DNA from: a virus
Reading direction: 5' to 3' (one strand)
Virus record (IMG/VR): IMGVR_UViG_3300009788_000344
Coordinates: 1 to 20,848 of that record
Length of the DNA: 20,848 nt
Notes under the pieces: generated by a model
Seen by the model: only the letters and a program-made list of their open reading frames with translations
What the model was told of the DNA's origin: nothing
Databases searched by the model: none
Program-made: the position numbers and the translations under genes
Shown: in pieces, positions 1-17,433 of the stretch
Position numbering within the stretch: position 1 is the first letter of the stretch
How the letters are laid out: each line of letters starts with the position of its first letter

Positions 1-1434
1 TACCGGGCGGCGGGCAAGTCCGGCTCCAAGACCCCTTGGCTTGGCGATGATTCTTCCGCCGATGCCGAAATACTTCTCTCCCTTCCGAAGCTGCGTAGCC
101 GGAGCCGTGAACTGAATCGCGACGATCCAATCGGCTCCGGCCTGACGCAGAGCTTCGTTAACAACGTCATAGGAACCGGCTTGCGGGCACAGGCGCGCAC
201 AAAGAAGCCCGCCAAGAACGAAGCGCTTGAGGCCGTCTGGAAATCGCGCAAGGACACTCTCAGCCTAGCCGATCAACTCGGCCATGGTGAAGCGCAGCGC
301 ATGATTATACGGAAGGTCTTTGAGGACGGGGAGATCTTTCGGAAGATTACTGTCAGAGAAGCGGGCGAGCCGATATGGTTTGAAACCGTGGAAGCCGAGC
401 GCGTTGCAACCCCGATGGAGTTTATTGCAGACCCCCATTTCCGACAGGGCGTAGAGCGTGATGACGCAAGCGTTCCTGTGGCATATTGGATTCTCAATCA
501 GCACCCTGGCGACACCATCACCGTCGGCACACACCAAACAAGCGAATTTCAGCGCATTCCGGCAGAATCCGTGCGGCACATTCGCATGATTGAGCGCCCC
601 GGTCAAACGCGCGGCGTTCCGGCGTTCCATGCAATTCTCCAAGACATCCGAGACCTTGACCTGCTCTTGATTGCCGCATTGAAGCGTACACAGATCGCCG
701 CCTGCCTTGCCGTGTTCATCAATTCGCCCGAAGAGACAGACCAGATGATTGACGTGACGGCGGAGAAGTACGGTTATTCTCTTGACCAATCACTCGAGCC
801 GGGCATGATTTGGAAATTGAAACCCGGCGAAGGTATCGAGACGTTGATCCCAAACTTCCCGACGCCGGAACTTGAGGCGTTCATTATCATGGTTTGCCGT
901 CGCATCGGCGCGGCCCTCGGGGTTTCATGGCAAGTAGTGCTCAAGGACTTCTCCAAATCCACATATTCCAGCGCCCGCACGGACCTACTCGAAACGCGGC
1001 AAGTCTACATTGTCCTGCAATCGTTCATCATCGAAAAGTACCTGAATTGGGAATGGCAAGTGGTGATGGAAGATGCCATCCTTCGGGGCGATGAGCGGCT
1101 GGCAGGCATCACTTCCGATGACATTCTCGCCGTGGGCTGGATCGGCAACGGATGGAAATGGATTGACCCCGTCAAGGAAGCCAAGGGCGCTCAGATAGAA
1201 TTGGAAATGGGGACCACTACGCTCCGTGATCAATGTGCGATGCGCGGCACGGATTGGGAAGAAATCCAGGACCAACGGCTCCGCGAAGAGTTGCGCGAAA
1301 TGAAAGAGCGCGAACGCCTCGGGCTTCCGCCGAAGGGCGTCGATCCCAATGAGCCGAATGAGCCCGACGAGCCCGACGATCCCGATGACGATGATGACAA
1401 CGGAAGGAATAATTCCAATGGCCGACAAGAATAG
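1..1434 (+). CDS. phage portal protein, lambda family (5' truncated)
   Basis: This gene encodes the dodecameric portal ring at one capsid vertex, through which DNA is packaged and ejected. The frame is open from base 1 with no start, so the N terminus lies outside the window; 477 residues are visible, against roughly 500-530 for lambda gpB-type portals. Diagnostic signs are RSRSRELNRDDPIGSG followed by NNVIGTG (window residues about 32-60), HIRMIERPGQTRGVP (about 193-207), and KSTYSSARTDLLE in the second half. A TTG at 181 would give an internal start, but the family motif upstream of it shows that the true protein begins earlier. The C terminus is a low-complexity acidic Asn/Glu/Asp-Pro tail ending in a run of five Asp. 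The stop overlaps the protease start at 1418 by 17 bases. The family call is strong and no catalytic activity is expected. Confidence 0.92.
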   Translation, partial: YRAAGKSGSKTPWLGDDSSADAEILLSLPKLRSRSRELNRDDPIGSGLTQSFVNNVIGTGLRAQARTKKPAKNEALEAVWKSRKDTLSLADQLGHGEAQRMIIRKVFEDGEIFRKITVREAGEPIWFETVEAERVATPMEFIADPHFRQGVERDDASVPVAYWILNQHPGDTITVGTHQTSEFQRIPAESVRHIRMIERPGQTRGVPAFHAILQDIRDLDLLLIAALKRTQIAACLAVFINSPEETDQMIDVTAEKYGYSLDQSLEPGMIWKLKPGEGIETLIPNFPTPELEAFIIMVCRRIGAALGVSWQVVLKDFSKSTYSSARTDLLETRQVYIVLQSFIIEKYLNWEWQVVMEDAILRGDERLAGITSDDILAVGWIGNGWKWIDPVKEAKGAQIELEMGTTTLRDQCAMRGTDWEEIQDQRLREELREMKERERLGLPPKGVDPNEPNEPDEPDDPDDDDDNGRNNSNGRQE

Positions 1435-2395
1435 ATTCAAAGACATGAATCGCGCCATGCTCGATACTGTCGAGGTGCGGGACATTGACGAAGACAACCG
1501 CACAGCCACATTCATAGCGGCCACAGAGGCCGGCGTCGATACGTTCTGGGGGCCGGAGCATCTGCGTATCCCCGGCATTCGCCTCGAGCGCTTTCGGAAG
1601 AATCCCGTAGTACTCGACACACATGACCGGAAGAGCGTAGGAAACATCGTTGGGCGCGCCATTGTGAAGGCCGTCAACCGGACCCTTGAGACAACGATTA
1701 CATTCGCCCCAACAGAACGCGCCGAAGTCATCTGGACTCTAGTTAAGGGCGGTTTTGCCCGCGCCCTGAGCATCGGCTTTATCCCTGACCGCTCGAAGAT
1801 CAAGGAATTGGACGATGGCGAAACGGACGGCGAAGGGCCAAACATGATAACCGGCCCGGCTACCATCATTCGCCAGTGGGAACTCTTGGAGATCTCCGTA
1901 GTCCCCGTGCCCGCAGATATGAACGCCTTGCGAAGGGCGATGCTTGACGGCGAGGACTTAGAATCGATGATTCGCAACCTCTCCGAACTATTGACCATCA
2001 ACAGAGAAAAGGAGGCAGAGATTATGCCTAAGAATGAAGAGGGCGTAGAAGATGCGCCGAAGAATGACGATCCAAAGGTTCGCGAAGAGCCCAAGGTAGA
2101 AAGCGCGGAAGAAATCGACGGGCGTACGCGCGCCGCAATCAACACGCAGATCCGGGACATTTGCCCCGAAGGTCTCGAGCGGACAGCCGAAGATTGCATC
2201 CTTGAGAAGTTGAACGTTGAGGATGCCAGGAAGCGGTTGCTCGAGGAACGCGCAAAGCAGTCGCCCCCGGCCGGCACACCCGAGCCGGAAGACGTGAGCA
2301 AGTCGGCGGAGAAGAAAAGGGCTGAAGACGAAAAGAAGGATCGCAAAATCGGCGACATTTCCGATGACGAATTCAAGCGCGGCTTGACAGGTTAA
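1418..2395 (+). CDS. prohead protease (S78/HK97 family) with C-terminal scaffold-like region
   Basis: This is a capsid maturation serine protease of the HK97/herpesvirus-assemblin fold, which cleaves scaffold and capsid N termini inside the prohead. The ATG at 1418 is chosen because GGAAGG lies 7-12 bases upstream and a start at 1349 would lie deep in the portal gene. It gives 325 residues. Residues 1-175 are the protease: LDTHDRKSVGNIVG (His69), ARALSIGF (Ser118) and WELLEISVVPVPA (Glu159) are the candidate active-site segments. Residues 203-325 are charged, proline-spotted and helix-prone (for example LEKLNVEDARKRLLEERAK), as expected of a fused scaffold. An internal ATG with a perfect Shine-Dalgarno lies at residue 203 and is listed separately. 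The gene sits in the standard position between portal and capsid. Assigning exact catalytic residues is inference from motif position. Confidence 0.9.
   Translation: MADKNRFKDMNRAMLDTVEVRDIDEDNRTATFIAATEAGVDTFWGPEHLRIPGIRLERFRKNPVVLDTHDRKSVGNIVGRAIVKAVNRTLETTITFAPTERAEVIWTLVKGGFARALSIGFIPDRSKIKELDDGETDGEGPNMITGPATIIRQWELLEISVVPVPADMNALRRAMLDGEDLESMIRNLSELLTINREKEAEIMPKNEEGVEDAPKNDDPKVREEPKVESAEEIDGRTRAAINTQIRDICPEGLERTAEDCILEKLNVEDARKRLLEERAKQSPPAGTPEPEDVSKSAEKKRAEDEKKDRKIGDISDDEFKRGLTG
2024..2395 (+). CDS. probable nested scaffold protein from an in-frame internal start
   Basis: Inside the protease gene and in the same frame, ATG at 2024 is preceded by GGAGG at 2011-2015 with an 8-base spacer, stronger than the site of the full-length gene. 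Translation from here gives 123 residues sharing the protease C terminus: a Glu/Lys/Asp/Pro-rich start (MPKNEEGVEDAPKNDD), then a helical segment, then a charged tail. This copies the lambda C/Nu3 arrangement, in which a scaffold is made from an internal start in the protease gene so that scaffold exceeds protease. The sequence shows the start signal and composition; the scaffold role is inference from architecture. No separate scaffold gene is seen between protease and capsid genes, which supports the reading. Confidence 0.68.
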   Translation: MPKNEEGVEDAPKNDDPKVREEPKVESAEEIDGRTRAAINTQIRDICPEGLERTAEDCILEKLNVEDARKRLLEERAKQSPPAGTPEPEDVSKSAEKKRAEDEKKDRKIGDISDDEFKRGLTG

Positions 2396-3032: not shown

Positions 3033-4250
3033 ATGTCTAAGAAGAAAAAGACACCCCTTATCGAATCTGGACTCAGATTCACTCGGGCCGACACAGCCGA
3101 CGAGTTTGCGCGGATGGCGGCCGACGATCCGTCCGCGTTCATTCAGAGGGCAAAGGATTTCATTGACGCCGGCGATCTCCGCTGGGGCGACTTCCACGAT
3201 CTGAAGCGGATGTTCCACAGCCTCATAGATGTTGGCGTCGAAGTCTATGCCGACGTGCTTGGCCAAGAGCGCGCCGTCATGGCGTCCGCATTCCCTGTCC
3301 TGTCCGGAGCGCTTACGGTGGCCGGCGTCAACGACGCTTTCGACGCCGTTCCAACAATCGGCCAGGAACTCGTAACCGAAGATGATAACAACAAAAAGAC
3401 GGCGACGTATGTTGCTATCACGTCCGAAGACACGACTATCGACACCGTCAAGGAAGGTGATGACTTCCCAGAGATTGGCGCAGGTGAAGAGTCTTTCGAG
3501 ATTCGCCACAAGCGCAATGGCCGCCGCCTAAGCATCACTGGCGAGACCATCGAAGAAAACGATCTCTCCAACATCGTCCGGCTTATCAACGCCCTCGGCG
3601 AGATCGCGGGCGAGTTCATCGAAGAGCAGACTCTTTCGCGCGTGACGGATCACGACGGATCCGCGTCATCCCCTGTGGAGACATTCGTTTATCGTCCGAA
3701 CGGAACGGGAACGGCGCTGTTTTCCGCGTCGGCGAATACGCCGGGCAAGCGCGCCCCGAGCGGAACGCGCGTCAACTCCAATCCTCTCGTCAATGAGACG
3801 GACCTGGACAATGCGCGCGCCGTGTTGGCCGCCATGCTCAACTACCGTCTAAAGGGGGTGAGCATCCCAATCAATCAGGCGACGTTGCTTGTGCCCGATG
3901 CGCTTGTCGGAACGGCGGACAAGATCCTCGGAAGCGAAATGTCCCCCGGTGTCGAGAACGAACTGAATCCGTGGGGCCCTCGAGGCCGCTGGCGTCCGAG
4001 CCTTCTGTCCTCGACGAAGTTGGACGATCTGTCCACATCCGCGTGGTATCTCGGAATTCCCAGAAAGCAGTTCATCCGAAAGTGGAAACTGCGGATCGAG
4101 AACGTCACGCTCGGAATGACCACGGAAAGTTTCCTCAAGAGCCGCATTGCCTTCCAGGCGCGCGTAGCTTGGGACGTCGAGATCGGTGCTACCGATTTCG
4201 TCTACTGGGTGCAGAACTTGGCCGCCACAACGGCTCCGGCTGACGAGTAA
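3033..4250 (+). CDS. major capsid protein (HK97-fold type)
   Basis: This 405-residue protein is the probable shell subunit. The ATG at 3033 follows AATAGGAGA at 3016-3024. The layout fits phage major capsid proteins: a charged helical N-terminal segment (residues about 1-75), then MASAFPVLSGALTVAGVNDAF. A strand-turn region with EGDDFPEIGAGEESFEIRHK comes next (the extended-loop area), then KRNGRRLSITGETIEENDLS and a long helix (NIVRLINALGEIAGEFIEEQ) resembling the spine helix. The C-terminal half has FLKSRIAFQARVAWDVEIGA, a typical closing beta strand. It lies downstream of portal and protease, in the right place and size range. Hairpins flank it on both sides, consistent with the need for very high expression. 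The exact capsid family was not determined. Confidence 0.85.
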   Translation: MSKKKKTPLIESGLRFTRADTADEFARMAADDPSAFIQRAKDFIDAGDLRWGDFHDLKRMFHSLIDVGVEVYADVLGQERAVMASAFPVLSGALTVAGVNDAFDAVPTIGQELVTEDDNNKKTATYVAITSEDTTIDTVKEGDDFPEIGAGEESFEIRHKRNGRRLSITGETIEENDLSNIVRLINALGEIAGEFIEEQTLSRVTDHDGSASSPVETFVYRPNGTGTALFSASANTPGKRAPSGTRVNSNPLVNETDLDNARAVLAAMLNYRLKGVSIPINQATLLVPDALVGTADKILGSEMSPGVENELNPWGPRGRWRPSLLSSTKLDDLSTSAWYLGIPRKQFIRKWKLRIENVTLGMTTESFLKSRIAFQARVAWDVEIGATDFVYWVQNLAATTAPADE

Positions 4251-5292: not shown

Positions 5293-5700
5293 ATGCCGAG
5301 TTCCTTCGATACGCAGTTTGCGACAAGCGCCGCAGACGAATTGAAAGCATCCTTTGGCGAGGATGTGACCTACAAGCAATTCGACTCTGCGGATTCCGAG
5401 ACGTTTAACGAAACCGTTAACGTCGTATTCTGCGAACAGAAGATCGAAGAGCGGATCCAGGTCGACGGCGAGAACGCGCTAGGCATGGCGGAGGTGACGC
5501 TCAAAGTGGCGGATACACTCGCAACGCCGGGGCGTGATGACGAAATTACGCGCGGCGGGCTTAGCTGGAGCGCAACAGATACGATTGAAGTCTCGGGTGG
5601 CATGATCACACTCCAATTCCTGCGTGTCGAGCCGGGCTACAGATCGCCGGGCGGAAGCGTGGAACTTGAACGGGTAGACGGAAACAGGCGGCGCGAATGA
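5293..5700 (+). CDS. probable head-tail connector/adaptor protein
   Basis: This gene encodes 135 residues from ATG 5293, one base after the previous stop. It is acidic and soluble with mixed alpha/beta character: an N-terminal helix (DTQFATSAADELKASFG), then strands such as VNVVFCEQKIEERIQV, AEVTLKVADTL and GMITLQFLRVEPGY. Size and place, right after the head genes, match the lambda gpFII/SPP1 gp16 class of neck proteins that plug the portal exit and receive the tail. No diagnostic motif was found, so this rests mainly on synteny. Its last 4 bases overlap the next gene (ATGA). Confidence 0.5.
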   Translation: MPSSFDTQFATSAADELKASFGEDVTYKQFDSADSETFNETVNVVFCEQKIEERIQVDGENALGMAEVTLKVADTLATPGRDDEITRGGLSWSATDTIEVSGGMITLQFLRVEPGYRSPGGSVELERVDGNRRRE

Positions 5701-6785
5701 CAACGAACGGACACAATTGGCCAGGCCCCCCGAAGGAGAATCGCGCCCTCGGATCCGGCCCCATCTCTTTCGCCATGTCCGAGCCGCACTACGCCGCGCA
5801 CTGGATCCCCGTGTGGAGCCGTCTCAAGAATCGCGGCAAGTTCTACGCGCACAACATCCACCATGGCTATCTCGTCTCGCAAGGCGTCCCTGAGCGCGAC
5901 CTTGAGAACTTTCCCAACCTACGCATGCGCGGCGGCACTCGACAAGCACAGCGCGGCCGCACGTCGCGCACGCGCACGAACAACGATATCATCCTTGTGG
6001 CGGCGTCCGGGGACTACCAGTCCGCAAACCGCCACTTTGGCCATAAGATCTTCGTGGAACATGGCTGCGGTATTTCATACGGCAACCGTCATCCTTCCTA
6101 CGCAGGCGGCACGGGTAGGCGTAGCGTTGGCCTCTTCTTGTGTCCGAACGAATATGTTGCGAAACTCAATCGCCAATACTACCCGGCGGCCACTTCTGCT
6201 ATCGTGGGCGATCCTTATCTCGACAAGCACATGGCCGCCCCGAAGAAAGATCCGGGCGACAAACCACTTGTAGTCATCAGCTTCCATTGGCCGGCCAAGT
6301 TTGCGGCGGAGGCCGGGTGGGCGTTCCCCGAGTATGAGCAAGTCCTTCCCGAGCTGGCGAAGCGGTTCAAGATCGCCGGCCACTGCCATCCCCGCGTAGC
6401 GTCCGTCATGGCGCAAAACTTCCGCAAGGCAGGCATTCCCTTCATTGCCGACTTTGACCGCGTCATGCTCGAGGCGGACATCTACGCCGTCGATAACTCG
6501 AGCACGCTCTACGAATTCGCCGCAACGGATCGGCCCGTCGTGGCCATGAACTCCGCGAAGTACCGACGGGACGTCAATCATGGCCTGCGATTCTGGGAGC
6601 ATTCGGAAGTCGGCTTCAATTGCGACTTTCCGGCCGACCTGGCCGACACAATCGACCTTGCGCTACTCGATCCTCCAAGCCAAAAGGAACGGCGCCATGC
6701 GGCTACGGCGGCCGTCTTTCCCGTCCTTGGCAACGCTACGGACGCGGCCGTGGATGCTATCGAGTCATGGAGGGCTACGCTGTGA
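5697..6785 (+). CDS. CDP-glycerol glycerophosphotransferase-like (TagB/TagF family) enzyme
   Basis: This 362-residue protein resembles the GT-B-fold polymerases that transfer glycerol-phosphate from CDP-glycerol in teichoic acid synthesis and related surface glycopolymer enzymes. Visible family signs are KIFVEHGCGISYG (residues about 117-129, with the conserved His-Gly), a Rossmann-like second domain starting at LVVISFHWPAKF (about 191), AGHCHPRV (about 227-234), and the hallmark EADIYAVDNSSTLYEFAATDRPVVAM (about 259-284; only the spread of the motif matters). The DNSS plus downstream FAATDRP pattern is the nucleotide/phosphate-binding end of this family. There is no signal peptide or membrane segment. 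It overlaps the connector gene by ATGA and the next neck gene by GTGA, so it is co-translated with virion genes. Donor and acceptor cannot be read from sequence; a related glycosyltransferase is the main alternative. Confidence 0.7.
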   Translation: MTTNGHNWPGPPKENRALGSGPISFAMSEPHYAAHWIPVWSRLKNRGKFYAHNIHHGYLVSQGVPERDLENFPNLRMRGGTRQAQRGRTSRTRTNNDIILVAASGDYQSANRHFGHKIFVEHGCGISYGNRHPSYAGGTGRRSVGLFLCPNEYVAKLNRQYYPAATSAIVGDPYLDKHMAAPKKDPGDKPLVVISFHWPAKFAAEAGWAFPEYEQVLPELAKRFKIAGHCHPRVASVMAQNFRKAGIPFIADFDRVMLEADIYAVDNSSTLYEFAATDRPVVAMNSAKYRRDVNHGLRFWEHSEVGFNCDFPADLADTIDLALLDPPSQKERRHAATAAVFPVLGNATDAAVDAIESWRATL

Positions 6786-7264
6786 GCGATTTCCTTTCGA
6801 GCCCTGTCGGACAACTTAAGACGGACATCTCGGAACTCGCCACGTGGCAGACCATCACCGGCGCGGCGAATGCGACTGCGGCCTTAGCCTTCATATTCAT
6901 TGACGCAGAAGTAAGCCCCGCGTTTCCATACCTCATCATCGACGACGATTCACACAACGAAGGATCCCTTGCCCTGGACATCTTGACCCCCGGCGGTAAC
7001 TTTACTACGGAAGGCATGCTGAATATCATCATCGGGATTGAAATTCCCGTGGGCTCAAATCGCGCAAGCATGGCAACGCGGCTCCAATATGGGAGGGAAC
7101 AGGTTGGTCCGCTCATTGAAGAGATGGGTAACTCGGTAGGGCGCAGCGGCGCGCAAAATCTGAGGCGAATTGAACGCCTTTGGGGGCCCGCGATCCCCAC
7201 GAAGGCGGAGCGAAGAAAGATCGGAGACTTCGTGGAATTCGCCTGGCGCACGAGGTGGACATAA
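6782..7264 (+). CDS. candidate tail terminator or neck protein
   Basis: The GTG at 6782 is chosen as start because GGAGG at 6769-6773 lies 8 bases upstream and the codon overlaps the preceding TGA (GTGA). The upstream ATG at 6767 would overlap that Shine-Dalgarno. The 160-residue product has strands FPYLIIDDDS and GMLNIIIGIEIPVG, then a helix region with RASMATRLQYGREQVGPLI and a basic C terminus. This size and alpha/beta outline, between connector and tube genes, fits tail terminators such as lambda gpU or HK97 gp10-region proteins. No sequence motif proves it. Confidence 0.45.
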   Translation: MSDFLSSPVGQLKTDISELATWQTITGAANATAALAFIFIDAEVSPAFPYLIIDDDSHNEGSLALDILTPGGNFTTEGMLNIIIGIEIPVGSNRASMATRLQYGREQVGPLIEEMGNSVGRSGAQNLRRIERLWGPAIPTKAERRKIGDFVEFAWRTRWT

Positions 7265-11758: not shown

Positions 11759-13737
11759 GCGAAGTACTCACAGGAGCGGACAGCCTACAATTCTACCTGA
11801 CCGGCGCGCACATAGTTGGCGTCGCGCAACCCGATCATGATGACTCTCTGGGTGGGAAGCGCGCATACAACCGGGCGGACGCATTCAATCCCCATCGTCT
11901 CGGCATGATCCGCAACGTCCGCATCAACAGCGTTCAAGGACAGAACGGCGAAGGGCTTGGATCTCTGGACATCCAAGACGATGACACGCTGCGATGGACG
12001 GCCCCGAACGGATCGCCTGGCGACGCCGTGACGATCCTCAACGGCGAAACCAAGGTTGTGGCGGACACGGACACGCAGAAATTCGCCATTGTGAGCCGCA
12101 CATCTTCCGTCCCGATGATTGGCGCGGAGACAGTACAGCTCCTGGACCTTCTCAATAACGTTGTGGGCGGATCCAACATTTCCAGCGCGGAGAGTACGGC
12201 GGGCGTCGTGAAATATCGGGCGGTCATATTCGCCGGCACCGCGCTCGGATCTTCTCTGTCCGTCGAATTTTGGCTTGACGCCGCCACAGCATCCGGCACG
12301 GCCATAGCAATCGAGCCGGACAGCGACGGAGAGATCCAGACCATCGCAGACGAAACGACAGCGCCGGGCGGCCTGAGCTTCACTTCCCCAACGGAAGGAT
12401 CCCCCCTGGCTTACATCAATCCCGGCGACGGCGCAACGCCCGGCCTGTGGATTCGCCGCACCATCGGCGCAAGCGCAAGCGCATCTTCAATGGAGAAGGT
12501 TATCATTCACTGGAAGGCGCTGCAATCCCCTGGCGTCATCACTTCGCAAGGCCAGCTTCGCGGGGCTTACCAGATTGCCGAGGCCAGCCTTCCTGAGGTT
12601 GTGGTATTCATTTCCACGGATGCCATACCGGACATCACCGGGACGCCGGACAAGACAATTGCCTCTTTCCCGGGCAACGTCGATAGCGACGCGGTTTCCG
12701 CCGATGACGAGTATTTCGTAGTGGCTCAATTACAGGACGCCTACGGGCTCCGCACGCGAGCCTTCGATATCGACTCCATTATCGTGGGCGCATCTTTCGA
12801 GGAATTGCCCGTTCCCCCGTCCGGGCCCTCTACCGTCTCCGCTGTGCCCGTGGCGGCCGGCAAGGTGAATATCAGGGCTGCATACTCCAGGCGGCAAGAA
12901 AGCCCCATACCGGCTACAGCGAACGCCCTGGCCGCCGATACGTGGCTCCTATACATCACGACGGATGGGGTTGACCCGGACCCCGACGTTGACGTGCCTA
13001 CCGAAGTCGCTATGAACGATGATGGCAATCAGGAATTCCTTGACTTCACCACGGGTGCGCAGACGGATCAGACAGAAGTGAAGGTGATTGTCCGGACGCG
13101 GCGCTCGGGGACTCCGGATGCGGACAGCACGAACACAACGGTATTCTCGGCTACGGCGGCCATCTTCGGCCCGCTTGCGCCACATGGCGCCGTTTCGATT
13201 GGCCGCAGGGCGGGCGTGTACGTTTCGCCCGACGTTCCCGATGAAATCATCTTTATCGATGAGCCGCTGAACATCTACTGGGAGGTCTTGGCCGGGGAGA
13301 CGCGGCTGTGGGCGGACACCGTGCTCGTGTGGACGCTTCGCTTCGATTCTGGTTTCGATTCGATGTTCGCTCTCAAGACAATCTTTCAGAGGGATCACGT
13401 TGCGGCCGCAGGGGCGGGAACCGGGGCTATCGAGGTTGGCACGTGGAATGTCGGGGTAGAACAGAAACTCCACATCAACGTGGGCACAACCCGAGTGTGC
13501 GATATCGACGTATTGAACGAGGTTATTCTATTCGCGGGATGGGACGCCATTGGAGTTCCGTCAAGCGTTGTGACAAGCGCCCCGATCTACCAGACGGCAA
13601 CGCACACGCTCCTGCAAGTTTGGGATCCGAGTTGCGAAAACTACATCACCGTAGCGGCCTTCGACGCAACAGGCACGCTACTCTCACGGGTTGGCTGGGA
13701 TAATCCCAGAACCCAAGCGGAGGTCCTAGCACTATGA
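11755..13737 (+). CDS. large tail structural protein with Ig/Fn3-like domain
   Basis: This gene encodes 660 residues from ATG 11755, coupled to the gene before (ATGA) and the gene after (ATGA at 13734). No signal peptide or membrane segment is present. Residues about 150-255 form a beta-rich block (KYRAVIFAGTALGSSLSVEFWLD...LWIRRTIGA; only part quoted). Residues about 355-470 look fibronectin-like: PSGPSTVSAVPVAAGKVNI, WLLYITTDGVDPDPD and EVKVIVRTRRSG. The C-terminal portion, with PLNIYWEV and VWTLRFDSGFD, is another beta domain. Location between tail genes and the fibre suggests a tail-tip or fibre-attachment protein. The family is not recognised. Confidence 0.55.
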   Translation: MSEVLTGADSLQFYLTGAHIVGVAQPDHDDSLGGKRAYNRADAFNPHRLGMIRNVRINSVQGQNGEGLGSLDIQDDDTLRWTAPNGSPGDAVTILNGETKVVADTDTQKFAIVSRTSSVPMIGAETVQLLDLLNNVVGGSNISSAESTAGVVKYRAVIFAGTALGSSLSVEFWLDAATASGTAIAIEPDSDGEIQTIADETTAPGGLSFTSPTEGSPLAYINPGDGATPGLWIRRTIGASASASSMEKVIIHWKALQSPGVITSQGQLRGAYQIAEASLPEVVVFISTDAIPDITGTPDKTIASFPGNVDSDAVSADDEYFVVAQLQDAYGLRTRAFDIDSIIVGASFEELPVPPSGPSTVSAVPVAAGKVNIRAAYSRRQESPIPATANALAADTWLLYITTDGVDPDPDVDVPTEVAMNDDGNQEFLDFTTGAQTDQTEVKVIVRTRRSGTPDADSTNTTVFSATAAIFGPLAPHGAVSIGRRAGVYVSPDVPDEIIFIDEPLNIYWEVLAGETRLWADTVLVWTLRFDSGFDSMFALKTIFQRDHVAAAGAGTGAIEVGTWNVGVEQKLHINVGTTRVCDIDVLNEVILFAGWDAIGVPSSVVTSAPIYQTATHTLLQVWDPSCENYITVAAFDATGTLLSRVGWDNPRTQAEVLAL

Positions 13738-16700
13738 AAATTAAGCACACATTGATTCTCATGGCCTTAATGGCCATTGTGTCCGTCGGCGCGGATGCAC
13801 AGAGGTTTTCCTACCGAGTGCATGATGACGATTGGGGCGCATACGGAAGCGATGATGACTTCATGATCAAATTCGACTCGAGCGATGTGCGTCTCGAGTG
13901 GGATGACGCGGATAGCAATACGATCATGACGTTGACGGATCAGGGAACTACCGGTGATCTCGGTGTCACTGGCAAAGTGGACATTGCCGGAATTCTCGAA
14001 ACGGGCTCTGGAAACCATTCCTTGACGAACGCCGCCGGGTTAATCGATGGCGGCAAGATTCAGTCCGGCACGGTGGACACGGCGCAGTTAGCCCTTGATG
14101 CTGTGGATGCGACCATCTTGGATGAAACTGCCAGCTTCACCATGGTGAACTTGACGGCTACCGGCCTCATTGCCGTGACGGGCGAAATCGACGTAGGCGG
14201 CATAATCGAGACGGGCTCTGGAAACCACGAACTCACGAACGCAGCGGGGTTGATCGACGGACTCAAGATCCAGCCAGGGACGGTTGATTCGACCATCATA
14301 GACGCGACGGACAGCTACATTATCGACGGCCTCCAAATGGGGGACGATCTGATATTCACCGGGCAAGTCGATAATGTCTATGACATCATGACGGCAACCT
14401 CGGATGGCAGCGATGATGAAAGTATCCGCATCAATCCGGCGGGCGCTTTCGGGCCTTCCAGGGGCGCAGGAATTGCGCTTTCCGGAAACGAAGCAGGCGC
14501 AGGAAGCGCTGGCCGTGTCTTCATTGACGCGGGCAATTTCTTTAGCTCTGGCCAGGATGGCTCGATAGAGTTCCGAACGGGCGCAAGCGCGGAACGGATG
14601 AACATCCCATTCACGGGCGATATCACCGTTGCTGTGGGCTTTGACATCGAAGGATTGATGTCCGTTGGCCAAAAGACGGAAACGGGAACGGACACAACCC
14701 CGAGCGTTGCGGACGCCAGCATCATAACGCTGAACCTGTCCGGGGCAACGACGATCACGGACTTCGATAATGAGATCATCGGGCAAGTGCTCTTTGTGCG
14801 CTCTACCGATTCAGATCCAACAATTGAACACGGTGCAACAATCGTTCTTGACGGCGGGGTCGATTACGAAATGACCGCGGACGACACGCTGATTCTTGTC
14901 AACGTCGGGGGCGTCTGGTACGAGCATGGGCGGAACGGCGCAAGCGGCGGAGGTGGAGGAAGCGGCGATACGATCACATCTACAGGGAGCGTATTCGCCG
15001 ATCCCGACTCGGATGGAAACGGCACAGAGAGTTTTGAAGTGTTGTTCGACGGCGGAGCGATTCCGATGTTCGAGGTTAGGGAGCCTTCGGGCGATCTCTA
15101 TCTTGGGATTGACGCTACGGACGTACTAATAACGGGCGATGACGAAGGTGATGCTGATGCCGGGGCAACCGATGGCGACATCATCATGGCCACAGACGGC
15201 AACTTGTCTTTCATTGTGGACGCCGATGAAGATCAAGCTGGAGCGTTCACTATCTTCGAGGGTGACGGCACGACCGAAATGCTGTCATCCCACGAAGGCG
15301 GGCTCCTACGGGCAACCGGAAACATCCAAACACTTTCAGGGATCGTGCTTGGCGCAGCCGCCCCTAGTGGAGACTTGACCCTTTCCTCTGTGGACAACGT
15401 GACGGTGCGCATAGACAACGCGAACGCGAACGTGAGCTTGTTCACTGTTGCCGCAGGCGGTGGGCCGACAACCGTGATGACTGTCGATGAACTCGGTAAC
15501 CTTCTAATGCTGTCCGATGTGACGGCGGAAGGCGGCGATTACTTCGGCACAGTGGGTGGGGATACGTCCGTGCAAAGCGATGGGGATGTGACTGTCGAAT
15601 TAGATAATAATACCGGTGAGACTTCCAGCTTTATCGTAGTTGACGATGGCGGCACGCCTATCGTCACGGCCACCGAGGGCGGAGACTTTCTGATAGCCGA
15701 CACGTTGACAGTGACGGGGCAGGTGACTCTATCATCCGGATTTGTGGACGGACACCCAACAAGCGACTTTCAATTCAATGCCGGCGCAAATTTTCTCATG
15801 GACCTTGACGCCAATGACGACGGTGGAAATAACACATTTGGGATTAGAGACAGCGACCTCACAACGGTTTTCACTGTTGACGAAGCGGGCGTAACGGACA
15901 CGCTTACTGGTTACGAAATCAACGGCACGGCGCTTGCCTCGACAGACCTCTCAGACACGGCGGAAATCATTCGCACGACGGATACCGATACCGTCACGAG
16001 CACGATTATTTTGGATGCGACGGTGGATACGATAGATCTTGCGGCGGATGCGGTGGACGCTACTATCCTCGACGAAACGGACGATTATCTTGTCAACAGC
16101 CTGTCCACGACGCTAGACCTCACGGCGTTGGGCGGCGATCTGTTTGGAACCGTGGATGGCACTACTACGGGTAACGCGGATACCGATTTCATAATCGCGA
16201 TCGACGTTGATGGGGGCGGCACGAACAGCTTCTTCCTTCACAATGATGGGGGCAGCACGCCGATTTTTGAAGTGCGTGAGCCGAATGGCGATTTGCATTT
16301 GGGAATTAACGATACAAACGTGTTTATCTACGGAGATAATGAAGCCGATGGCAGTAGTGATGATGGCGATATAATATTTCAAACTGACGGTGATTTTCGT
16401 TTTGATATGGACACGGACGATGATTACGGATTTCAACGCTTTATCATCCTGGATGGCGACGGTATCACGATGTTCGTAGTACAGGAAAATAGTGATGCCT
16501 TCTTACTTACGGATAAAAATTTCGTTGTAGAATTAGACAACGATGCTAACGATGTAAACATGTCGCTGCAAATCATCGACGGCCTAGGCGCAACGGCCCA
16601 CGAATTCTCCGAGCTAGGTGGCTACAACGGCCTAAGATTCCGCATCACACCAATCGGCGGCTACGCGATTCTTATGGCGGACAACACAACGTCGAGCATC

Positions 16701-17030
16701 ATTGGCCAAGTGGTGATCGTGGACGCCGCAGCGGACGATCAGGTTGAAGACGCGGGCAATAACGAAACGGAGCAATTGGGCATAATCGAATCTGTGAGTG
16801 GCTCCAATGTATGGGTTGTCGTTAACGGAATAGCCGACGTTGCATTCGAAGACAACACCGCCACAACAGCAGGGGATCATGCGATAACGAGCGTGACGGA
16901 AGGGCCGTACTGTATTAATAGCGCAACCGCGTCCGCGACCAGAAATATAGGCCACATAATTGAGTCTGTGGCGGCTGGCGGCGGCGGGACACATATTTTG
17001 GCACGTGTAGTGTTGAAGACAACTCCATAA
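13734..17030 (+). CDS. giant repeat-built fibre-like protein with Sec signal peptide
   Basis: This 1098-residue protein starts at ATG 13734 with GGAGG at 13719-13723. Residues 1-22 are a classic Sec signal (MKIKH, a hydrophobic core, then GADA before Q23). Residues 78-115 and 148-185 are a tandem repeat carrying ETGSGNH(S/E)LTNAAGLIDG. A recurring strand motif, roughly V-x-(L/I)-D-x-(D/N) ... F-x-(V/I) ... G ... F-x-V-x-E, occurs near residues 43, 418, 488, 553, 616, 686, 816, 886 and 928. Two copies contain FEVREP(S/N)GDL(Y/H)LGI. GSIEFRTGASAERMNI (277-292) is a pattern common in phage tail fibres. A Gly-rich linker (GASGGGGGSG) splits the protein near 402-411. Residues about 965-1098 form a C-terminal domain. 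The likely role is receptor-binding fibre or spike, but the export signal is unexpected for a virion part. Confidence 0.65.
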   Translation: MKIKHTLILMALMAIVSVGADAQRFSYRVHDDDWGAYGSDDDFMIKFDSSDVRLEWDDADSNTIMTLTDQGTTGDLGVTGKVDIAGILETGSGNHSLTNAAGLIDGGKIQSGTVDTAQLALDAVDATILDETASFTMVNLTATGLIAVTGEIDVGGIIETGSGNHELTNAAGLIDGLKIQPGTVDSTIIDATDSYIIDGLQMGDDLIFTGQVDNVYDIMTATSDGSDDESIRINPAGAFGPSRGAGIALSGNEAGAGSAGRVFIDAGNFFSSGQDGSIEFRTGASAERMNIPFTGDITVAVGFDIEGLMSVGQKTETGTDTTPSVADASIITLNLSGATTITDFDNEIIGQVLFVRSTDSDPTIEHGATIVLDGGVDYEMTADDTLILVNVGGVWYEHGRNGASGGGGGSGDTITSTGSVFADPDSDGNGTESFEVLFDGGAIPMFEVREPSGDLYLGIDATDVLITGDDEGDADAGATDGDIIMATDGNLSFIVDADEDQAGAFTIFEGDGTTEMLSSHEGGLLRATGNIQTLSGIVLGAAAPSGDLTLSSVDNVTVRIDNANANVSLFTVAAGGGPTTVMTVDELGNLLMLSDVTAEGGDYFGTVGGDTSVQSDGDVTVELDNNTGETSSFIVVDDGGTPIVTATEGGDFLIADTLTVTGQVTLSSGFVDGHPTSDFQFNAGANFLMDLDANDDGGNNTFGIRDSDLTTVFTVDEAGVTDTLTGYEINGTALASTDLSDTAEIIRTTDTDTVTSTIILDATVDTIDLAADAVDATILDETDDYLVNSLSTTLDLTALGGDLFGTVDGTTTGNADTDFIIAIDVDGGGTNSFFLHNDGGSTPIFEVREPNGDLHLGINDTNVFIYGDNEADGSSDDGDIIFQTDGDFRFDMDTDDDYGFQRFIILDGDGITMFVVQENSDAFLLTDKNFVVELDNDANDVNMSLQIIDGLGATAHEFSELGGYNGLRFRITPIGGYAILMADNTTSSIIGQVVIVDAAADDQVEDAGNNETEQLGIIESVSGSNVWVVVNGIADVAFEDNTATTAGDHAITSVTEGPYCINSATASATRNIGHIIESVAAGGGGTHILARVVLKTTP
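13965..14078 (+). repeat. fibre repeat A, copy 1
   Basis: This encodes residues 78-115 of the fibre-like protein. It matches copy 2 exactly 210 bases (70 residues) downstream, including the identical 17-base ACGGGCTCTGGAAACCA at 14001-14017. Confidence 0.85.
14175..14288 (+). repeat. fibre repeat A, copy 2
   Basis: This encodes residues 148-185. The protein matches copy 1 at most positions while many third bases differ, so selection has kept the unit rather than recent duplication alone. ACGGGCTCTGGAAACCA recurs at 14211-14227. Confidence 0.85.
14991..15293 (+). repeat. fibre repeat B, copy 1
   Basis: This encodes residues about 420-520, containing PMFEVREPSGDLYLGID and then TDGDIIMATDGN. 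It aligns with copy 2 about 1190 bases downstream at protein level. Confidence 0.7.
16179..16481 (+). repeat. fibre repeat B, copy 2
   Basis: This encodes residues about 816-916, containing PIFEVREPNGDLHLGIN and then SDDGDIIFQTDGD. The DNA is much more AT-rich than copy 1, so the two copies have diverged in base composition while keeping the protein pattern. Confidence 0.7.
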
Positions 17031-17046: not shown

Positions 17047-17433
17047 ATGAAGAGGACATTGACGGTAGCGTTGGTATTGGCGGTCATGGTCGCCTCATTC
17101 GGTTTCGGCTGGATGGAATCGGCGAAGGCGGCCACACAGGCCGAGCGCATCGAAGCGCTCATGGCAGAGGACATTGAGTATTTCTGGAATGACCTGATGC
17201 AGGGCTCCTACCACCGGGAAGCGCCGCGTGCCGTTACGTGGGATAGGGCCAATTTGACTGAGGAGCAGAAGGTGGCGAAGGGAATATGGATGCTTCCTCC
17301 TGTGCCGCCCGAGCAAGTGAAACAGCAAATCCAAAGCTTGTTGCTCAGTCTCGACCATGATCATAAGGCAGCCCTAGTGACCGAACTGGAAAAAGAAAAG
17401 ACAGTTTTGGAAGCTGCAATCGCAGGCCAGTAA
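17047..17433 (+). CDS. small exported protein of unknown function
   Basis: This 128-residue protein from ATG 17047 (GGAAAGGAA upstream) has a Sec signal: MKRTLTVALVLAVMVASFGF, then a predicted cleavage at AKA before A29. There is no lipobox Cys, so it is not a lipoprotein. The mature part is mostly helical: a first helix AATQAERIEALMAEDIEYFW, a Pro-rich middle (LPPVPPEQVKQQIQSLLLSL), and a charged C-terminal helix DHKAALVTELEKEKTVLEAA. No enzyme motif was seen. It follows another signal-peptide protein and precedes a coiled-coil membrane protein. It may be an envelope accessory protein, possibly linked to lysis or host-surface interaction, but this is a guess. Confidence 0.6.
   Translation: MKRTLTVALVLAVMVASFGFGWMESAKAATQAERIEALMAEDIEYFWNDLMQGSYHREAPRAVTWDRANLTEEQKVAKGIWMLPPVPPEQVKQQIQSLLLSLDHDHKAALVTELEKEKTVLEAAIAGQ

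Follow-up and report, generated by a model that had tools for sequence, protein, structure and literature searches.

The stretch of DNA analysed here, referred to as the window, is a virus record of 20,848 bases on which gene calls and Pfam and PHROG profile searches were made. Its late gene run passes from portal, protease and major capsid protein through small head genes to neck and tail, and the gene of interest, encoding a teichoic-acid-type transferase, lies within the neck (Table 1). The position between head-tail connector genes that had been read from the sequence holds up: the upstream neighbour resembles head-closure (Hc1) proteins by its phrog_82 match, and the downstream one appears to be a tail terminator, its model being of low confidence (pLDDT 58) but the best Foldseek matches of that model, T5 p142 and lambda gpU included, being mostly tail terminators (best E 4e-3); a profile search with this downstream gene gave no match.

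Table 1. Features of the head and neck region of the window and motifs of the transferase (residue counts refer to aligned family members).
Feature	Position	Strand	Evidence or remark
Portal protein, lambda family	1..1434	+	PF05136, E 3.8e-78; 5' end beyond contig
Head maturation protease	1418..2395	+	PF04586 and phrog_4523
Major capsid protein	3033..4250	+	PF25209, E 4.6e-14
Head-closure (Hc1)-like neck gene	5293..5700	+	phrog_82, E 0.016, near-complete profile; homologue in the same place in L165 and L166
ATGA start/stop overlap with upstream gene (stop at 5700)	5697..5700	+	
GT-B transferase, PF04464 CDP-glycerol glycerophosphotransferase kind, 362 aa	5697..6785	+	
EHGCG, codons 121-125	6057..6071	+	HG motif, candidate equivalent of TagF WHG; H122 in 65/65 ungapped rows
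FHW, codons 196-198	6282..6290	+	H197 invariant, 66/66
GHCHPR, codons 228-233	6378..6395	+	H229, H231 in 65/66; candidate pyrophosphate-binding histidine (TagF H584 region)
DNSST, codons 266-270	6492..6506	+	D266, S269 in 66/66; aligns with DxSS of PF04464 enzymes
HGLRFW, codons 295-300	6579..6596	+	R298-F299-W300 invariant (66/66); family-specific motif
GTGA start/stop overlap with downstream gene	6782..6785	+	
Tail-terminator-like neck gene	6782..7264	+	Low-confidence model, Foldseek; homologue right after Hc1 in L165
Next neck gene, 160 aa	7264..7746	+	Order homologous in L165 and L169

The four-base overlaps on both sides of the gene, ATGA and GTGA, are present as the sequence-only reading described, and a well-spaced Shine-Dalgarno-like GGAGG at 6769-6773 supports the GTG start at 6782. 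That reading had gone on to tie expression of the enzyme to virion assembly through these overlaps, a step that proved weak. Overlapping junctions are the norm, being found at 35/66 upstream and 40/68 downstream junctions of related genes, and they carry little information because 370 of 822 other same-strand gene pairs in the same loci (45%) overlap as well. Coupled overlaps were dropped as non-specific evidence for assembly-linked expression; membership of a co-directional late operon remains, and genomic context is the stronger evidence.

A promoter and terminator scan gave signals near chance, the window has no Rfam match and no tRNA, and the GC content of the transferase gene (0.607), the highest by a small margin among the window genes tested, was not used as evidence. 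No other glycan gene was seen across the 20.8 kb of the window, and sugar partners or the donor would therefore have to be supplied by the host or encoded in portions of the genome that were not sequenced. In the tail module, a 1098-aa open reading frame (13734-17030, + strand) begins with a Sec-like signal peptide (MKIKHTLILMALMAIVSVGADAQ), which is unusual in a tail protein, and contains diverged internal repeats (13948-14077 versus 14158-14287, 71% identical); the 128-aa reading frame directly 3' of it (17047-17433, + strand) has a signal-peptide-like start too (MKRTLTVALVLAVMVASFGFGWMESAKAA).

Distribution and genomic placement of the family

A single-sequence scan of viral contigs and a phmmer search of the PDB returned no matches, and the family was opened with alignments, first of two sequences and later of four, which matched 108 viral loci, 80 of them kept. 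Locus counts below refer to 70 non-redundant loci and motif and profile counts to 66 aligned members; the scans are pattern-based, with the usual limits. A tblastn search over 50,697 GenBank phage records found only Virus Rctr41k, and thus no sequence relatives in the mycobacteriophages with glycosylated virions, and plasmids yielded no relatives with family member L045 as the query. Comparable scans of 84,980 cellular genomes gave three contigs, against the 108 viral loci, which makes lysogenic conversion unlikely, and in one of the three (L084) the family gene is surrounded by terminase, portal and capsid genes. The family is known mainly from uncultured phages. A member in a Coriobacteriia metagenome-assembled genome (L180, JAUVXE010000002.1) immediately follows a capsid-like gene on a cellular contig of 232 kb, apparently in a prophage, and its C-terminal part runs into different sequence.

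Homologue positions, whose survey the sequence-only reading had proposed, are not randomly scattered: in at least 52 of the 70 loci the family gene stands among packaging, head or neck genes. The count comprises 44 loci with structural gene clusters whose representatives match PHROG families (terminase, portal, capsid, adaptor, head-closure, tail-terminator and major-tail families being counted as structural) and eight further loci assigned by direct profile or homology, namely the window, L002, L004, L017, L026, L037, L044 and L056. None of the loci beyond these speaks against virion-gene placement, and an HK97 capsid profile run on the loci lacking a structural assignment gave no matches. 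Structural genes flank the family gene on both sides in at least 27 loci, or 29 if a tape-measure-like cluster, assigned without a profile test, is included; the bracketing genes are portal and major capsid protein in 15 loci and Hc1 and tail terminator in six. The transferase of L011 follows Hc1 directly, as in the window. Counted over the rows whose site is known, the family tree, many of whose branches are weak, shows at least 11 switches from one type of site to another.

The capsid protein served to locate the closest relatives of the head module in the window. In L165, whose capsid protein is 59% identical, and in L166, the Hc1 homologue leads straight into the following neck gene with no transferase between them, and the order in L165 (Hc1, g165, g160, tail protein) is that of the window minus the transferase. 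L169, too, lacks the transferase and keeps g165, g160 and the tail protein in window order, and the other head-module relatives carry none where the region is covered. The nearest relatives thus share the neck genes without the transferase, which is therefore an accessory insertion. Reciprocal empty sites were found in a second pair: in Rctr41k the family gene lies between an SU10-type adaptor and a small neck gene, with an ATGA overlap, and this adaptor/neck junction is empty in the related L044, where the family gene instead follows a head-morphogenesis gene at a junction that is empty in Rctr41k. The transferase is mobile cargo, yet it settles among virion genes.

Enzyme class and proposed donor

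The sole Pfam match of the window protein is to PF04464 (E 4e-4, residues 214-291), at 19.9 bits against a curated cut-off of 22.1. Among its aligned relatives 63/66 match this profile (E<=0.1; best 2.3e-13), and L012, L017, L019 and L026 exceed the cut-off with 40.9, 38.2, 29.5 and 27.4 bits, respectively. The family profile aligns over 240 columns with the bacterial PF04464 protein L179, and in this alignment EHGxG, GxPxLD, FHW, HxHP and DNSST meet the corresponding motifs of L179. The EHG of the family was aligned with GHG in a bacterial PF04464 protein, the W of WHG not being conserved, and DNSST was also aligned with the DYSS of Cps3D and TarL. The WHG histidine of TagF, H444, probably serves as the base, and its H584 binds pyrophosphate (PMC11666461); H122 may correspond to the former and H229/H231 to the latter, equivalences taken from alignments rather than from coordinates.

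The alignment-based model of the transferase (pLDDT 89.9, pTM 0.89) has a predicted GT-B fold with two Rossmann-like domains, a fold common to TagF/TagB-type enzymes, TarL, Cps3D and the phage family. It matches TagF (3l7j) with Z 20.3 over 311 residues (rmsd 4.4), the TagF-like Cps3D with Z 19.6 and TarL with Z 19.1. The alignment to TagF begins only at residue 343, and the N-terminal membrane part of TagF (~340 residues) is absent. UDP-GlcNAc 2-epimerases are level with TagF (Z 20.5), and fold and Z cannot tell the two apart. The profile search and fold comparison, which could have pointed to a non-GT-B family, gave the GT-B fold and PF04464 instead. The CDP-glycerol glycerophosphotransferase signs first noticed in the sequence are borne out in this way, and the reading frame at 5697-6785 is confirmed as a GT-B enzyme of the PF04464 kind. 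The phage family shares with PF04464 enzymes the aligned HG, GxPxxD, HxHP-type and DxSS motifs, the TagD-like partner gene of some relatives and a sugar-transferase fusion as in Cps3D. Unlike TagF, it is a single-domain viral protein with EHG in place of WHG, a family-specific HGxRFW motif and no N-terminal TagF domain, it is found among virion genes, and identity in the structural alignment is ~14%.

The TagD-like cytidylyltransferase, with the motifs GTFDxxHxGH, GDDW and RTxGxSST, occurs in nine loci and points to a CDP-polyol donor, a link seen in a minority of loci, the window not among them. It adjoins the family gene in L011, L045 and L060, and in L014, L020 and L030 the cassette opens with it immediately after Hc1. 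It aligns over its full length with the glycerol-3-phosphate cytidylyltransferase TagD (1coz, 9e-23), whereas ethanolamine-phosphate cytidylyltransferase scores slightly higher but over part of the protein only; judged from these alignments, glycerol is the likely substrate. A reciprocal search, in which only L117 was independent of the starting set, is weakly informative: 72 of 79 TagD-like loci have no family member in the fetched flanks. TagD-like cytidylyltransferases (L086-L164) are common among viral contigs, the scan having matched 393 loci, and most have no member of the transferase family nearby.

The enzyme might, though we think this less likely than not, belong to the common GT-B glycosyltransferases that take nucleotide sugars, or be a UDP-sugar 2-epimerase. 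It would then act on UDP- or dTDP-sugars and transfer or make a sugar in place of a phosphopolyol; this alternative concerns the donor and is compatible with either acceptor. The non-hydrolysing UDP-GlcNAc 2-epimerases (WecB/MnaA/NeuC) have the same fold and tie for the best fold match, PF02350 and PF13692 match 13/66 and 16/66 members weakly, and hexose-phosphate transferases likewise carry an HG motif, in the form QHG (PMC11666461). However, the best E-value for profiles of this type is 3.5e-5, far behind PF04464, which nearly all members match, and the window protein has no PF02350 match. DNSST and the TagD-like neighbours also fit PF04464 enzymes better than the 2-epimerases.

Proposed acceptor and role

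Genes of glycan type lie at most five genes away from the family gene in 45 of the 70 loci, some clusters being labelled from sequence alone; those tested with profiles are rhamnosyltransferase-like, GT2, FkbM and other methyltransferase, pyruvyltransferase and cytidylyltransferase clusters. In dozens of environmental phages that are unrelated to one another, the relatives thus sit in particle-building genes, often beside sugar-chain genes, and the enzyme therefore probably decorates the virus particle. The gene is an accessory insertion in the late-expressed neck operon of a tailed phage, and its product is a soluble GT-B transferase with a single domain that belongs to the CDP-glycerol glycerophosphotransferase superfamily. 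The enzyme would be made alongside head and neck proteins late in infection and act in the cytoplasm. It may transfer a glycerol-phosphate-like (phosphopolyol) or related nucleotide-activated group to a glycan on the new virion, or to a virion protein directly, with masking or altered adsorption as a possible benefit. We lean slightly towards the view that the virion is decorated, through late expression of the enzyme, with a glycan that bears a (phospho)polyol. The CDP-polyol donor, the virion acceptor and the benefit are all things that we infer, and gene position does not itself reveal the acceptor.

Both roles that the sequence-only reading had offered, virion decoration and alteration of the host surface, were weighed, and the first is the better supported. 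An enzyme acting on a glycan of the host envelope, whether late in infection or in the lysogen, could block further adsorption or keep progeny from sticking to debris, and the seat in the virion operon would then set timing alone. TagF, TarL and Cps3D, all PF04464 enzymes, build envelope polymers (PMC5974469, PMC11666461), and late expression would fit release or superinfection exclusion. We nevertheless regard this as rather improbable and favour the virion over the host envelope because the enzyme is a soluble single domain lacking the N-terminal part of TagF, because the family is rare in cellular genomes and because its insertion sites move yet remain among virion genes. Glycosylation of phage DNA bases rather than protein is highly improbable: DNA-modifying phage glycosyltransferases are known, according to review statements in PMC12619734, but no base-modification genes were seen beside the transferase, and neighbours of FkbM methyltransferase and rhamnosyl-, pyruvyl- and cytidylyltransferase type are typical of surface glycans.

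Virion decoration could be taken further, to a mobile cassette that is centred on the transferase, has in part its own CDP-glycerol-type donor synthesis and is slotted into the virion operon, coating the particles of an undescribed, widespread phage group with teichoic-acid-like phosphopolyol glycans. We put this forward tentatively, as a proposal more apt to fail than to hold. Virion glycosylation itself is known from mycobacteriophages (Freeman et al., 2023, as cited in passages of PMC12619734 and PMC13313380), and PF04464 enzymes are familiar from the synthesis of teichoic acids and capsules (PMC5974469, PMC11666461). The mycobacteriophage systems likewise involve phage-encoded glycan enzymes with methyltransferases alongside and a proposed capsid or tail protein target; the phage family described here differs in its predicted phosphopolyol chemistry. 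A search of the open literature, with subscription journals mostly outside its scope, found no precedent for phage virion decoration by CDP-glycerol or glycerophosphate, and what would be new is the combination of this enzyme class with virion decoration. Virion glycosylation has so far been shown for few actinobacteriophages; if the proposed role is true, virion decoration would be common and chemically broader, extending to charged phosphopolyols, and would bear on how particles adsorb, what charge they have and how they are recognised. A family gene placed in the neck or in the interval from portal to capsid offers a simple genomic marker for picking phages for mass spectrometry.

Some family members are fused to other domains, among them FkbM, GT2/GT7C, GT32-type and PF03407 domains. 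Single-linkage clustering had suggested tandem paralogues of the transferase, a suggestion that was rejected: the extra members have no match to the family profile and are other glycan domains chained in via fusion proteins. One fusion of 914 aa (L017:4468-7209) joins FkbM, GT2/GT7C and PF04464-like parts near head-morphogenesis and head-protease genes, and another (L026:5437-7158), close to a terminase large subunit gene, combines a GT32-like DXD part, a PF04464-like part and a C-terminal YqbF domain.
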